Assembly (NCBI RefSeq): GCF_012641365.1
Contig: NZ_JABAIM010000001.1
Coordinates: 558,001 to 622,000 of the forward strand
DNA from: Leeia aquatica
GTDB lineage: Bacteria; Pseudomonadota; Gammaproteobacteria; Burkholderiales; Leeiaceae
Direction: 5' to 3'
Length of the DNA stretch: 64,000 nucleotides
The position numbers and the translations under genes were made by a program. This document shows, in pieces, positions 49,742-55,768 of this stretch (its first letter is position 1; each line of letters starts with the position of its first letter). The notes below the pieces were generated by a model. That model was not told the DNA's origin. It searched no databases and worked only from the letters and a program-made list of their open reading frames with translations.

Positions 49742-49990
49742 TTACCCAATTTCCGCCAGATACGCATCCAGTCTTGCACGGTTGAGGTGGTAATGACACA
49801 ACTCGTACTCACCCGCCATCAGCACCGGAATCAGCTGGCCGTAGCGGGCCTCGGTGTCATCATCATCCTCAATGTCCACCACCTGCAGCAGCAAGCGCCC
49901 CCGGTAGTCCTGCTGCAGTGCAGCCAGCATGTCCTGGCACAGGTGGCAGTATTCGCGAATGTAGAGTGTCAGCGTCGGTAAGGCGCTCAC
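49742..49990 (-). CDS. Glutaredoxin-family protein (CxxC)
   Basis: An 82-residue thioredoxin-fold protein with the redox site CHLC near residue 15 and the cis-Pro in LIPVLMAG. Short DUF836-type glutaredoxins downstream of mucD are common in beta-proteobacteria. The GTG at 49990 overlaps the mucD stop (GTGA). Being in the sigma-E operon it may serve redox repair during envelope stress, which is inference. Confidence 0.85.
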   Translation of the reverse strand: MSALPTLTLYIREYCHLCQDMLAALQQDYRGRLLLQVVDIEDDDDTEARYGQLIPVLMAGEYELCHYHLNRARLDAYLAEIG

Positions 49991-51381
49991 TTTTCCGGAA
50001 CCCGCACCGGGATGTACAGCGTGCTGTCATCACGGCGGATCAGCAAGGCCACCACACTGCCCTTCGGCGCCCGCTCCAGCAGCAGCAGCAGTTGCTGCTG
50101 CGACTTCAGGGTTTCATTGCTGACGCCGATGATGACATCGCCCTCCTCCACCCCGGCTCGCGCCGCGGCACCCTGCGCCGAGGTCACCAGCAGACCAAAT
50201 CCGACGTCCAATTGACGTTTCTGAGCCGCATTCAGCTCGGTCACCTGCAAGCCAATGCGCACCAGCGCATCCGGCTTCGGCGGGGCGGCAGGCTTGGCCT
50301 TGGCGCTGTCATCCACCACCTCACCCAGCGTCACCGTCACATCCTGGGATGCCTTGTTGCGCCATACCTGCAACTGTACCTTGCTGCCGGGTTTGGTGGA
50401 GCCCACCACACGTGGCAACTCGCTGGACGCACCAATCGGCTTGTTGTCGAACTTCAGAATCACATCACCGGCCTTCAGCCCGGCACGGTCAGCGGCAGAG
50501 CCCTTTTCCACACCCACCACCAGCGCACCCGATGGCGCACCCAGACCCAGCGACTCCGCAATATCCTTGCTCACTTCCTGGATATTGATACCCAGCTTGC
50601 CACGACTGATCCGGCCATTGCTCTTCAGCTGATTGGCCACGTCCATCGCCACGTCGATCGGGATCGAGAACGACAAGCCCATGAACCCGCCGGAGCGACT
50701 ATAGATCTGGGAGTTGATGCCAATCACCTCACCGCGCATATTGAACAGCGGGCCACCGGAGTTACCGGGGTTCACCGCGGCATCGGTCTGGATGAACGGC
50801 ACATAAGTATCGTCCGGCAGGGTACGCCCCTTGGCCGACACGATCCCGGCCGTCACGGTGTTTTCCAGCCCGAACGGCGAACCAATGGCCAGCACCCACT
50901 CGCCCACCTTCAGCTTGTCCGGGTCACCCAGCGTAACGATGGGCAGCTTGCTGGCTTCAATCTTCAGCACGGCCACATCGGTGCGCTTGTCCGCCCCGAT
51001 CAGCTTGGCCTTGAATTCGCGCTTGTCGGTCAGCTTGACGGTGATCTCATCCGCACCATCCACCACATGCGCATTGGTCAGAATCACGCCATCGGCACTG
51101 ATGATGAAACCGGAACCCAGCGAGCGGGTCTGGTAATCCCGCTGCTTGGGCAATTGCGGCATGAAGCGCTTGAAGAATTCATAGGCCGGGTCACCCTCGG
51201 CAAACGGATTGGCAGCGCCACCACTCACCGTCTGCGTGGTACTGATGTTGACCACCGCAGGGCCCTGCTTTTCCACCAGCTCAGTAAAATCCGGTAAATC
51301 CTTGGCTGCTGCCACGCTCACAGTGGACCACAACACAGCCACACCCAACAGGCCGGATTGCAACGAACGCCACAGTTTCAT
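49987..51381 (-). CDS. mucD: DegP/HtrA-type periplasmic serine protease
   Basis: A 464-residue periplasmic protease and chaperone. Signal peptide ends VAAA at residue 26. The triad is H105 (LTNAHVVDG), D135 (RTDVAVLKI) and S208 (NPGNSGGPLFN). Two PDZ domains follow (about 265-355 and 370-460). It belongs to the rpoE operon, where HtrA-type proteases clear misfolded envelope proteins. Confidence 0.95.
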   Translation of the reverse strand: MKLWRSLQSGLLGVAVLWSTVSVAAAKDLPDFTELVEKQGPAVVNISTTQTVSGGAANPFAEGDPAYEFFKRFMPQLPKQRDYQTRSLGSGFIISADGVILTNAHVVDGADEITVKLTDKREFKAKLIGADKRTDVAVLKIEASKLPIVTLGDPDKLKVGEWVLAIGSPFGLENTVTAGIVSAKGRTLPDDTYVPFIQTDAAVNPGNSGGPLFNMRGEVIGINSQIYSRSGGFMGLSFSIPIDVAMDVANQLKSNGRISRGKLGINIQEVSKDIAESLGLGAPSGALVVGVEKGSAADRAGLKAGDVILKFDNKPIGASSELPRVVGSTKPGSKVQLQVWRNKASQDVTVTLGEVVDDSAKAKPAAPPKPDALVRIGLQVTELNAAQKRQLDVGFGLLVTSAQGAAARAGVEEGDVIIGVSNETLKSQQQLLLLLERAPKGSVVALLIRRDDSTLYIPVRVPEK

Positions 51382-51415: not shown

Positions 51416-52399
51416 TCAACGCTTGGGCTTGATCCGCAAGCTGTTACCCAGCTGCTGCAGGGCCCCTTTCGGCACCTCGCCCAGCAACATCATCACCGCG
51501 CCTTCATCGGTTTCCACCAGGATATTGGTGTCGTTCTGACGCGATGCGCCCTCTGCAGGCCGCCCTTCCTTGCCGGTAAATTCCAGGAACACCGACATGG
51601 AAGCCAGGCCATCCGAGAACAGGTAATGCGACACCGGCGCAGGCTTGCCCGGTAGCTGCCGCTTGCTGCCCCGCACCAGCTTGAAGCCTGCGGGCAGCTG
51701 CTTGTCGTTGATGATCAGGTCGTCCGCCTTCACCGGGCCATCGCTACGCTGCCAGGCCCCCACCTTGTTGGGCAGACGCGGCTTGAAGGCACTGCGATCA
51801 ATCACCCCGCCGATGTTGACCTGGGTAAAGGACATCTGCTCCAGCAGCTCCTGCCGGTCGTTATAGACCTGCGCCTTGAGCAGCACCGCACGGGTGGGCT
51901 CATAACAGAAGCGGAACGGGTTACGCAGCCCGTCCTTGGGTGCCAGCAACACCATCTGGCAATCGTGGTCGGCCACCCGCTCCATGTCCTGCCGGATCAC
52001 GTGATAGTTTTCCAGCAGGGCGCGACTGTCATTCGGCAGCACATCAGGGAAGAAGCGGCTGTAGGACTGGTAATCCACCTTGTCACTGCGGTTGGCAGGC
52101 ACATAGCAGCTGAGCATGTTGTTGGCACGGATCAGCTCCTGCGCCGGGCCATCCAGCGCCTCCAGCTTCTCATAGCTGTTGCCGTCCGCAAACTGATGGG
52201 TAATGCGGGAGGTTTCCACCAGGGTATCGCGCTGGTAGACATACACTCCGACGAAACTCTGCTGCCGGGTGGCCTGCGTCACCCGGTTCAGCAGTTGCAA
52301 GCCTTCCGAGGGCGACAGTGCCTGCCCGGCCAGCGCTACCCCGACACAGCACGGCAGCAGCAAGCGCAGCAGGTGAACCGGTTTGAAACATAAACTCAT
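51416..52399 (-). CDS. rseB: Sigma-E regulatory protein RseB/MucB
   Basis: A 327-residue periplasmic protein that binds RseA and shields it from site-1 proteolysis; related in fold to LolA/LolB. Signal peptide MSLCFKPVHLLRLLLPCCVG to about residue 25. Typical regions are QQSFVGVYVYQRD, ETSRITHQFADG and FLEFTGKEGRPAEGASR. Its ATG overlaps the rseA stop as ATGA. Confidence 0.92.
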   Translation of the reverse strand: MSLCFKPVHLLRLLLPCCVGVALAGQALSPSEGLQLLNRVTQATRQQSFVGVYVYQRDTLVETSRITHQFADGNSYEKLEALDGPAQELIRANNMLSCYVPANRSDKVDYQSYSRFFPDVLPNDSRALLENYHVIRQDMERVADHDCQMVLLAPKDGLRNPFRFCYEPTRAVLLKAQVYNDRQELLEQMSFTQVNIGGVIDRSAFKPRLPNKVGAWQRSDGPVKADDLIINDKQLPAGFKLVRGSKRQLPGKPAPVSHYLFSDGLASMSVFLEFTGKEGRPAEGASRQNDTNILVETDEGAVMMLLGEVPKGALQQLGNSLRIKPKR

Positions 52400-52890
52400 T
52401 TGTTCACCGGCTCCCCACCCTCATAGTTGGCGGGGCGCACCTCGCTGCGGCCATTCACCTGCCCGGAGAACTGCTGATGCGCAGCCAGGTAGGGGCGCAT
52501 GTCTGCCGTACCTGTTGCCTTGAGCGGGGCCGTGACCGCAGCCTGCATGGTCGGGGCATTGGCCGGGGTCGGGCGGGTATGCCAGCCCATCCAGCCCACC
52601 ACCGACACGGCAGCGACCGATGCCGCAGCAGACAAGGCCACCATGGTGCGGCGAGCCGGCATGCGCGCGCGTCGCGGCGCCAGAATGGTCGGCTCGGCTT
52701 CCAGCTGCGCCATCACCCGGCTGCGGACATCCACATCGGCAGCCCCTTTCTCGCGCAGCGCATCACGAATCAGGTGATAGGTATGCCACTGCTCAGCCCC
52801 GTCCGGGTTGTGTCGCAACCATTGCAATACCGAAGCTTCTTCCTGACTGGAAAGCTCACCATCCATCAAGGCTGAAATACGCTCGTTCAT
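52396..52890 (-). CDS. rseA: Anti-sigma-E factor RseA
   Basis: A 164-residue single-pass membrane protein that holds sigma-E at the inner membrane. The N-terminal sigma-binding domain begins NERISALMDGELSSQEE and includes WHTYHLIRDALR; one helix at about 84-103 (TMVALSAAASVAAVSVVGWM) crosses the membrane. The ATG at 52890 with GGTGA 5 bases upstream is chosen; ATG 52902, overlapping the rpoE stop, is possible. No rseC is present. Confidence 0.92.
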   Translation of the reverse strand: MNERISALMDGELSSQEEASVLQWLRHNPDGAEQWHTYHLIRDALREKGAADVDVRSRVMAQLEAEPTILAPRRARMPARRTMVALSAAASVAAVSVVGWMGWHTRPTPANAPTMQAAVTAPLKATGTADMRPYLAAHQQFSGQVNGRSEVRPANYEGGEPVNK

Positions 52891-52895
52891 GCTGT

Positions 52896-53498
52896 TCACC
52901 ATCTTCTGTTCTGCTTCTGTTCCACCAGCGGTCGCAGCTCCGCTGCAATCGCTTCCCGGGCGCGGAAGATCCGCGACCGCACCGTGCCAATCGGGCACTG
53001 CATTGCCTCAGCAATTTCTTCGTAGCTGAGTCCTTCCATCTCGCGCAGCGTGATGGCCTCGCGCAGCTCCTCCGGCAAGGCTTCCACCACCCGGTTCACC
53101 GCCTGCACGATCTGCTGGTTGGCCAACTCGGTTTCCGGGGTATTGTCATCCGGCACCTGCTCGGCCATGTCCAGCGTTTCGGACTCGTCCACCTCAATGG
53201 ATGTCGAGGTGGTGGTCGCCCGCCGCCCTGCCGACATCAGATAATTCTTCGCCGTATTAATAGCGATGCGATACAGCCAGGTATAGAACGCACTTTCCCC
53301 GCGGAACGAGGGCAAGGCCCGGTAAGCCTTGATAAAGGCTTCCTGCGCCACATCCTCGATCTCCTCCGGATTGCGGACGAAGCGGGACAACAGGCGTGCA
53401 AGCTTCCGCTGGTATTTGCCTACCAGCAGGTCAAAGGCCCGTTTGTCTCCGCGCTGTACGCGCTCTACCAGCTGTTGATCGACTTCGCGATCACTCAT
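52896..53498 (-). CDS. rpoE: RNA polymerase sigma-E factor (envelope stress)
   Basis: A 200-residue ECF sigma factor. Region 2 holds AFDLLVGKYQRKLARLLSRF and EDVAQEAFIKAYRALPSFRG; region 4 holds LREMEGLSYEEIAEAMQCPIGTVRSRIFRAR. It heads the operon rpoE-rseA-rseB-mucD-glutaredoxin. A GGAACTT-N16-TCTG promoter lies 91 bases upstream, indicating autoregulation. Confidence 0.96.
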   Translation of the reverse strand: MSDREVDQQLVERVQRGDKRAFDLLVGKYQRKLARLLSRFVRNPEEIEDVAQEAFIKAYRALPSFRGESAFYTWLYRIAINTAKNYLMSAGRRATTTSTSIEVDESETLDMAEQVPDDNTPETELANQQIVQAVNRVVEALPEELREAITLREMEGLSYEEIAEAMQCPIGTVRSRIFRAREAIAAELRPLVEQKQNRRW

Positions 53499-53588
53499 GC
53501 TGCCATCCCTGATGCTGCGGGACCGGCCCATCCGGTTGCCGCAGACTGAACTCTTGTTTTTGAAGGGTGCAATGCTACCACCTGCAGC

Positions 53589-53617
53589 AACAGACCTGAA
53601 AGCGGAAGGGAAGTTCC
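53589..53617 (-). promoter_or_regulatory. Sigma-E-type promoter of the rpoE operon
   Basis: GGAACTT (minus 53617-53611), 16 bases, then TCTGTT (53594-53589): close to the sigma-E consensus GGAACTT-N15/16-TCTRA. The start would fall near 53583, leaving an 85-base leader to rpoE. The exact seven-base -35 match makes chance unlikely. Confidence 0.75.
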
Positions 53618-53627
53618 GGCCACCGTC

Positions 53628-53636
53628 TGTTAAAAT
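53628..53636 (+). promoter_or_regulatory. Extended -10 promoter of nadB
   Basis: TGTTAAAAT: TG one base before TAAAAT, 36 bases upstream of the nadB ATG. No good -35; the corresponding position overlaps the divergent sigma-E -35 element. Confidence 0.35.
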
Positions 53637-53671
53637 TCACACCTCACTCACGTCAGCAGGAAACGGGCAGC

Positions 53672-55243
53672 ATGCACAAGACAGACGTCCTCATCATCGG
53701 CAGTGGTCTGGCAGGCCAGGCACTGGCGCTGCGGCTGGCCGACCGGCTGAAGGTCACGCTGGTGACCAAGAAAGCCCTGCTCGATGGCGCCAGCAGCTGG
53801 GCGCAAGGCGGCATCGCCGCCGTGCTGACCGACGAAGACTCCATCGACGCCCACCTGCAGGACACCCAGATTGCCGGTGGTGGCCTGTGCGATCCGCACG
53901 CCACCCGCTACATCCTCGAGCATGCCCGCCGCAATATCGAATGGCTGATTGCCCAGGGCGTACCGTTCACCCCGGATGCAGGCCACCCCTTCGGCTTCCA
54001 CCTCACGCGGGAAGGCGGTCACAGCCACCGCCGCATCATTCACGCCGCCGACGCCACCGGCGCAGCGGTACAGCAAACGCTGGTGGAGAAAGTACGGCAG
54101 CACCCGAACATCACCGTGCTGGAAAACCGGGTGGCGATCGACCTGATCACCAGCCGCAAGCTGGGCCACAGTGAACAGCGCGCGCTCGGTACCTATATCC
54201 TGAACACCGAAACCGATCACGTGGAAACCCTGCTGGCCTCGTACACCGTGCTCGCCACCGGCGGCGCAGGCAAGGTCTACCTGTACACCACCAACCCGGA
54301 TACCGCCACTGGCGACGGCATTGCCATGGGCTGGCGCGCCGGATGCCGGGTCGCGAACATGGAGTTCATCCAGTTCCACCCCACCTGCCTCTACCACCCG
54401 GAAGCCAAGTCCTTCCTGATTACGGAGGCGGTGCGCGGCGAAGGCGGCATCCTGCGCCTGCCGGATGGCCACCGTTTCATGCCGGATCACGACCCGCGCG
54501 CCGAGCTGGCCCCGCGTGACACCGTCGCCCGCAGCATCGACTTTGAAATGAAACGCCACGGCCTGGATTGCGTGTATCTGGACATCTCGCACAAACCACG
54601 CGATTTCCTGCGTGACCACTTCCCCACCATCTACGCCCGCTGCCTGGAGCTGGGCATCGACATCAGCCGCCAGGGCATCCCGGTGGTCCCCGCCGCCCAC
54701 TACACCTGCGGCGGCCTGATGGTGGACCTGCAAGGCCGCACCGATGTCGCCAACCTCTACGCTGCCGGTGAAGTGGCGTACACCGGCCTGCACGGTGCCA
54801 ACCGGCTGGCCAGCAATTCGCTGCTGGAATGCCTGGTGATTGCCGAGAGCGCCGCCGAGGACATCCTCTCGCGCCAAGCCGAGCCGCTGCCCAGCGTGCC
54901 GGACTGGGACGAAAGCCGGGTGACCGACGCCGACGAAGAAGTGGTGATCGCGCACAACTGGAACGAGCTGCGCCACGCAATGTGGGACTATGTCGGCATC
55001 GTGCGCACCACCAAGCGCCTGCAACGCGCCCAGCACCGCATCCAGCTGCTCACGCAGGAAATCAACGAGTTCTACCGCAACTTCCGCGTCAGCAACGACC
55101 TGATCGAGCTACGCAACCTGGTGCTCACCGCCGACCTCATCATACAAAGCGCCCTGCGCCGCCACGAAAGCCGCGGCCTGCACTTCAGCCGCGACTACCC
55201 GGACCTGCTGCCGAAAGCGGTACCGACGGTGCTGGTGCCGTAG
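53672..55243 (+). CDS. nadB: L-aspartate oxidase
   Basis: A 523-residue FAD enzyme that makes iminoaspartate, the first step of NAD synthesis. FAD motif [30 protein letters not shown]; substrate residues in [20 protein letters not shown]-type segment (core [11 protein letters not shown]), [12 protein letters not shown], and the active-site region [14 protein letters not shown]; the C-terminal helical domain contains [20 protein letters not shown]. Slightly short of E. coli's 540. nadA and nadC are not in the window. Confidence 0.96.
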
Positions 55244-55333: not shown

Positions 55334-55768
55334 ATGCAAGAAGATTTGAATATTTCCATAAAAAAAGAACTTATCAACTTTGAGGCCCACATAGATGCAT
55401 ATTACTCCTCGCTTAATACAGAAGGAGTATGGCTTTTTCTTGCAACGCTTGGTTGCTGGGGTGTAAGCCCCGCCTGGCCTCAACTTCATGCAATTGTTTT
55501 AACGGTCATTTTATTTATGCATAGAACATATTTAAAATTCAACGACAAGAGATCTTTAAAGACCATAAGCAAAGATCTTGAAAGCAAAATAAAAAATGAA
55601 CTTGACGCAGGAGACACACAAAAAGCTAGACTGCATGATTTGCAGCAGATTCACAACATTAAGTTATCCACCACGTCCCAGTTCAAATCTACAATAATTT
55701 TTTTTCTTTGCTATACTTTTCTAGTCGTTACAGTGTGGCATTGGTTCTCTATTCCGAAGGTATATTAA
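55334..55768 (+). CDS. Orphan low-GC membrane protein, unknown
   Basis: A 144-residue protein with hydrophobic stretches at about 31-47, 50-62 and 118-140, and a charged, probably coiled linker (residues 70-110, rich in K, D, E). Base composition is roughly 35-40% GC by eye against about 60% around it, with many AAA/AAT/ATA codons, which points to horizontal transfer. No strong ribosome site precedes the ATG. It stands alone between nadB and a bidirectional terminator. No homologous family recognised. Confidence 0.65.
   Translation: MQEDLNISIKKELINFEAHIDAYYSSLNTEGVWLFLATLGCWGVSPAWPQLHAIVLTVILFMHRTYLKFNDKRSLKTISKDLESKIKNELDAGDTQKARLHDLQQIHNIKLSTTSQFKSTIIFFLCYTFLVVTVWHWFSIPKVY

Follow-up and report, generated by a model that had tools for sequence, protein, structure and literature searches.

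The question raised by this locus is whether the self-activating promoter of rpoE and the promoter of nadB, which face away from each other in Leeia aquatica, are placed so closely that a polymerase at one of them blocks the other, linking envelope stress with NAD synthesis, as was suggested in a first-pass annotation of the window (the whole stretch of DNA analysed, 64,000 nucleotides). Leeia is placed in Neisseriales by the NCBI taxonomy. The genes concerned are the following.

52896..53498, minus strand: rpoE, ECF sigma factor of 200 aa (TIGR02939 RpoE_Sigma70, 306.6 bits, cut-off 236.15)
52396..52890, minus strand: rseA, anti-sigma-E (PF03872 RseA_N, E 1.1e-18)
51416..52399, minus strand: rseB/mucB (PF03888, E 4.4e-47; PF17188, E 8.6e-19)
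49987..51381, minus strand: degP/mucD-like Do serine protease (TIGR02037, 520 bits, cut-off 416)
53672..55243, plus strand: nadB, L-aspartate oxidase of 523 aa (NF006567, 946 bits, cut-off 629; TIGR00551, 636 bits, cut-off 453)

On the minus strand the order is thus rpoE, rseA, rseB, the Do-family protease and then lepA, with nadB diverging on the plus strand. The matches of rseA and rseB to PF03872, PF03888 and PF17188 exceed the gathering scores, and those to the NCBIfam RseA and RseB models fall under their curated cut-offs. With an RpoE of the curated family followed downstream by rseA and rseB, the operon is of the RpoE (ECF02) type. It is noted that past nadB there is an open frame of low GC (window positions 55337-55768, 143 aa) with no Pfam match.

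The promoter elements between rpoE and nadB are as follows, the elements themselves being read directly from the sequence.

53611..53617, minus strand: -35 element GGAACTT of the sigma-E promoter of rpoE
53595..53610, minus strand: spacer of this promoter, 16 bases, CCCTTCCGCTTTCAGG
53588..53595, minus strand: -10 region GTCTGTTG of this promoter, with the TCTG core at 53591-53594
53584..53586, minus strand: predicted rpoE start site, placed by the usual -10 to +1 spacing
53572..53580, minus strand: possible second, housekeeping extended -10 for rpoE, TGGTAGCAT, weak
53628..53636, plus strand: extended -10 of nadB, TGTTAAAAT (TG-T-TAAAAT)
53643..53644, plus strand: predicted nadB start site, likewise placed by rule

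On the minus strand GGAACTT (53617-53611) is followed by CCCTTCCGCTTTCAGG and then by TCTGTTG, the first base of the -10 region GTCTGTTG doubling as the last spacer base. The resulting GGAACTT-N16-TCTG, running from 53617 to 53591 upstream of the rpoE-rseA-rseB-degP cluster, has the sigma-E form (GGAACTT, a spacer of N15-17 and TC(T)) and the correct direction, and the rpoE promoter is predicted to be an ordinary autoregulatory promoter of the sigma-E (ECF) kind. In the genome of 3,556,396 bases the pattern KGAACTT-N14..16-GTCT has a single match, which is this site, against 5 for the reversed-pattern control, and the looser GGAACTT-N14..15-GTC has 5 matches against 43 for its reversed control. 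Among the latter 5 the rpoE site alone precedes an evident gene start; of the remaining matches, three lie in or across long open frames, and around the fourth (L129) the ORF scan found nothing near. No sigma-E regulon can be drawn from the motif, the tight pattern giving one site and the looser one these four in addition.

Stronger evidence for the sigma-E promoter than this genome-wide rarity is its conservation. From relatives 122 nadB loci were gathered in three sets (30 + 80 + 12), of which 82 have a divergent rpoE inside the fetched flank; after merging of one duplicate there are 81 distinct regions of betaproteobacteria, with intergenic lengths of 118-347 bp. The 40 loci having no divergent rpoE inside the flank were excluded, two of them (L016 and L048) having less than 400 bases upstream and hence being uninformative. 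A sigma-E box in the rpoE sense is present in 61 of the 81 regions, a class that is set by a loose rule, contains at least one probable false match (L067) and counts relatives regardless of shared descent; the corresponding number in 100 dinucleotide shuffles has a mean of 2.66 and a maximum of 6. With a stricter pattern the number is 56 of 81 (shuffles: mean 0.23, maximum 2). The consensus in the relatives is (T/G)GAACT(A/T), a spacer mostly of 16 or 17 bases and then GTCT. Thus the GGAACTT-N16-TCTG promoter that the first-pass annotation had put upstream of rpoE is confirmed both by direct reading and by comparison.

For nadB, TGTTAAAAT has the extended -10 form TGN-TANNNT and lies 35 bases before the ATG. 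At spacers of 15 to 19 bases the hexamers are GAAGTT, GGAAGT, GGGAAG, AGGGAA and AAGGGA, none of them recognisable as a -35, and no TTGACA-like hexamer lies 15-19 bases ahead of TAAAAT, so that nadB would depend on its extended -10. A general sigma-70 scanner calls no promoter at the rpoE/nadB region, being silent at nadB because it demands a -35 match. Among the relatives 55 of the 81 regions have an extended -10 placed 20-62 bases ahead of the start codon of nadB; in the shuffles this number has a mean of 2.25 and does not exceed 5, and on the reverse complement it is 5. We thus predict that the nadB promoter is an ordinary extended -10 housekeeping promoter. Since the conservation of both is far above that of the shuffles, the sigma-E promoter of rpoE and the extended -10 promoter of nadB are well supported, at the level of sequence, as genuine properties of the rpoE/nadB pair in betaproteobacteria. 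It was also considered that sigma-E drives nadB, since GTCTG overlaps the nadB extended -10. This was rejected, because no sigma-E box in the nadB sense is present in any of the 81 regions and because on the nadB strand a GGAAC-type -35 at a suitable distance is absent from the two further Leeia genomes.

This conservation also bears on whether the two predicted promoters are the main ones. In a rival reading rpoE is transcribed mainly from a housekeeping promoter nearer to it, or nadB from another site. Such a promoter for rpoE is suggested by a TATACT-type box that most relatives have in the stretch from the sigma-E box to rpoE and by the weak TGGTAGCAT in the window; against it, both the sigma-E box and the extended -10 are conserved far above the shuffles and the second box of the window is poor, and we consider it very improbable that either predicted promoter is not the main one.

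Several other observations on the relatives are noted here. The box between the sigma-E box and rpoE, GGTTATACT or TATACT, is found in about 49 of the 61 loci, as counted without a shuffle control (for example L005, L014, L033 and L036), and is probably a housekeeping promoter for rpoE in these species; Leeia has no good copy of it. Eight loci of the Azonexus/Dechloromonas type (L050, L060, L064, L070, L071, L074, L077 and L087) have no confident sigma-E box, and common to the same eight is a direct repeat like TGTGAC-n4/5-TGTAAC upstream of the nadB extended -10, which is possibly a response-regulator site. In many betaproteobacteria the rpoE sense shows a weakly conserved block, A-rich and then C-rich, such as GGAAAACCCC, at 10-18 bases ahead of the sigma-E -35, where an UP element would lie (L031, L032, L051, L010 and L021 are examples); in Leeia the zone held by this block is occupied by the nadB -10.

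We now consider the spacing. In the window the gap from the sigma-E -35 to the TG of the nadB extended -10 is 10 bases, and that to the -10 hexamer is 13, so that the closeness on opposite strands claimed earlier, with about 11 bases, holds. In the three Leeia genomes the gaps are 10, 11 and 11 bases, tight in all three; the nadB -10 of the other two is TGATACACT and TGATAAAAT at the same place, the box being conserved as TGNTAMAMT. The intergenic lengths in the three are 164-184 bp, and the flanking parts differ by indels while the promoter gap stays nearly constant, which could be due to selection for the overlap.

Outside the genus the spacing is not kept. The automatic picks of the nadB -10 are implausible for some loci (for example L020, L025 and L068), and the gap statistics were therefore limited to the 37 loci, Leeia included, in which the sigma-E box is accompanied by a strict extended -10. 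Over these the gap ranges from 10 to 106 bases with a median of 44, the 10 bases of the window being the smallest extended -10 gap, and values of 10-12 recur outside Leeia in two loci (L013 and L055). An order-wide conserved overlap as a proof of function was rejected on this range. The distance from the nadB -10 to the ATG has a median of 34 and a standard deviation of 8.8, and that from the sigma-E box to rpoE is about 102 bases with a standard deviation of 30. The gap rises with the intergenic length (Spearman 0.75, a value that is partly built in, the gap being part of the length, and that ignores kinship), and it does not follow how far the sigma-E box lies from rpoE (0.11, p 0.5, kinship likewise ignored). 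The range of the gap, the distance of the nadB -10 from the ATG and the rise with intergenic length agree with two promoters that are each fixed relative to the gene they serve and joined by a free linker; most simply read, the distance between them is the remainder. The closeness in Leeia then looks like a by-product of a short intergenic gap. It is also noted that in four loci of the Methylophilaceae type (L063, L078, L082 and L098) a TACACT-like nadB box appears to fall within the spacer of the opposite-strand sigma-E promoter, an overlap tighter than in the window.

Based on these positions, the consequence of the closeness can be considered as follows. The starts placed by rule at about 53585 on the minus strand and about 53643 on the plus strand are about 58 bp apart. 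The standard footprint of a polymerase extends from -55 to +20. From the inferred starts the two footprints would overlap, sharing about 51-54 bp that include the sigma-E -35 and the nadB -10, and from this overlap simultaneous occupancy by two polymerases is unlikely. Because the intergenic region of Leeia is short, the sigma-E -35 takes the position expected for a nadB -35, and the nadB -10 falls within the alpha-subunit zone at the upstream end of the sigma-E promoter. Most likely the sigma-E and nadB holoenzymes would then sterically exclude each other, and steric exclusion in Leeia is likely from this geometry. The extended -10 of nadB, with no evident -35 beside it, would let the two promoters still work in alternation. 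It is expected that under strong firing of the sigma-E promoter nadB would be lowered somewhat, and that occupancy of the nadB promoter would slightly damp the self-activation of rpoE.

The size of the effect depends on the frequency and the duration of occupancy by the sigma-E polymerase, and it was estimated with a simple occupancy formula, in which the firing rates and the residence times are assumed and unmeasured. With firing at 0.01-0.1 per second and a polymerase resident for 1-20 seconds, the nadB loss would be 1.01- to 3-fold, and with firing at 0.3 per second and residence of 20 seconds it would be 7-fold. With the slowest firing and a brief stay of the polymerase, again with assumed rates, it would be as small as 1.01- to 1.05-fold, which is consistent with the two promoters being real and having no measurable mutual effect, as would occur if the sigma-E polymerase clears fast, nadB is weak and the demand on it is of low rate. 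Also consistent with such independence is that both promoters persist in the relatives whether they almost touch or are more than 100 bases apart. By contrast, the 10 bases of the window are the lower extreme of these extended -10 gaps and its footprints clearly overlap, and we regard a complete lack of measurable effect as unlikely.

At the other end, the overlap could be a selected switch, in which sigma-E holoenzyme released by stress shuts nadB, and polymerases at nadB damp the sigma-E loop when the demand for NAD is high; the shutdown of nadB would cut both NAD synthesis and the peroxide made by the flavoenzyme NadB. The shared 51-54 bp, the near-equal gap in all three Leeia genomes with similar gaps in the two other short-gap loci, and the still tighter TACACT-like overlap in the four loci of the Methylophilaceae type are in its favour, and PMC10191379, in its accessible part, discusses reactive oxygen arising from NadB. 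However, an exclusion switch would be expected to hold its spacing more widely, and the wide variation of the gap over the 37 loci argues against a dedicated circuit; moreover, the occupancy arithmetic with its assumed rates gives only 1.01- to 3-fold for firing up to 0.1 per second. We consider such a switch quite unlikely. The literature searched, with most subscription journals outside it, holds no report of exclusion between the rpoE and nadB promoters or of a stress-NAD link, and this is weak evidence of absence. A bolder form, in which Leeia and, separately, other lineages with short gaps have a two-way switch built on polymerase exclusion alone and needing no regulator protein, which would couple envelope stress with NAD supply, with nadB transcription braking the sigma-E loop and sigma-E firing repressing nadB, would be a long shot.

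We return to the passive reading. An ordinary sigma-E promoter of rpoE and an ordinary extended -10 promoter of nadB face away from each other, the two would exclude each other sterically, and the effect would be passive and modest; this we hold to be the probable description of the locus, with good but not complete confidence, and the effect is expected to be of this kind rather than that of a conserved circuit. Of the blocking proposed earlier, the part that stands is the overlap, which is genuine and kept within the genus Leeia; the gap varies widely elsewhere, and the regulatory link between envelope stress and NAD synthesis, drawn from the geometry, is a possibility.

The region offers a clean, conserved case of a stress promoter that activates itself and points away from a metabolic gene, at distances graded across related species, which is a natural series for measuring polymerase crowding as a function of spacing. 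If the exclusion is strong in Leeia, envelope stress would change NAD synthesis without a dedicated regulator; at present rpoE/nadB is an ordinary promoter pair.

Finally, we compare the locus with known systems. In Bordetella bronchiseptica, SigE is a betaproteobacterial RpoE-like sigma factor able to work from the rpoHP3 promoter of E. coli, and an RpoE-like (ECF02) consensus has been proposed for it (PMC3490749); the accessible text of that paper makes no mention of a promoter overlap with nadB. In Pseudomonas syringae the sigma-E/AlgU motif GAACTT-N16-17-TCcaA upstream of algU suggests autoregulation, and in strain DC3000 103 pairs of promoter motifs lie within 100 bases of each other, and 17 of these pairs overlap, as given in the available sections of PMC3247240; these counts indicate that promoters this close are not rare, although the pairs belong to genes other than rpoE/nadB. 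As in Leeia, the sigma factor gene and nadB flank one intergenic region in Pseudomonas aeruginosa, where they are algU (algT) and nadB (PA0762/PA0761), according to an excerpt of PMC3750012. In E. coli rpoE and nadB are likewise divergent, both in the excerpted text of PMC3306311 and in the K-12 annotation, and the spacer between them stands in a table of constitutive promoters of extracytoplasmic sigma factors obtained by genomic SELEX, in the part of PMC5493296 that is accessible. Like Leeia, E. coli K-12 has GGAACTT-N16-TCTAA upstream of rpoE, as read by eye; unlike in Leeia, this sigma-E box lies inside the leader gene rseD, 298 bp from the nadB start codon, with no overlap, which counts against an overlap selected as a switch.
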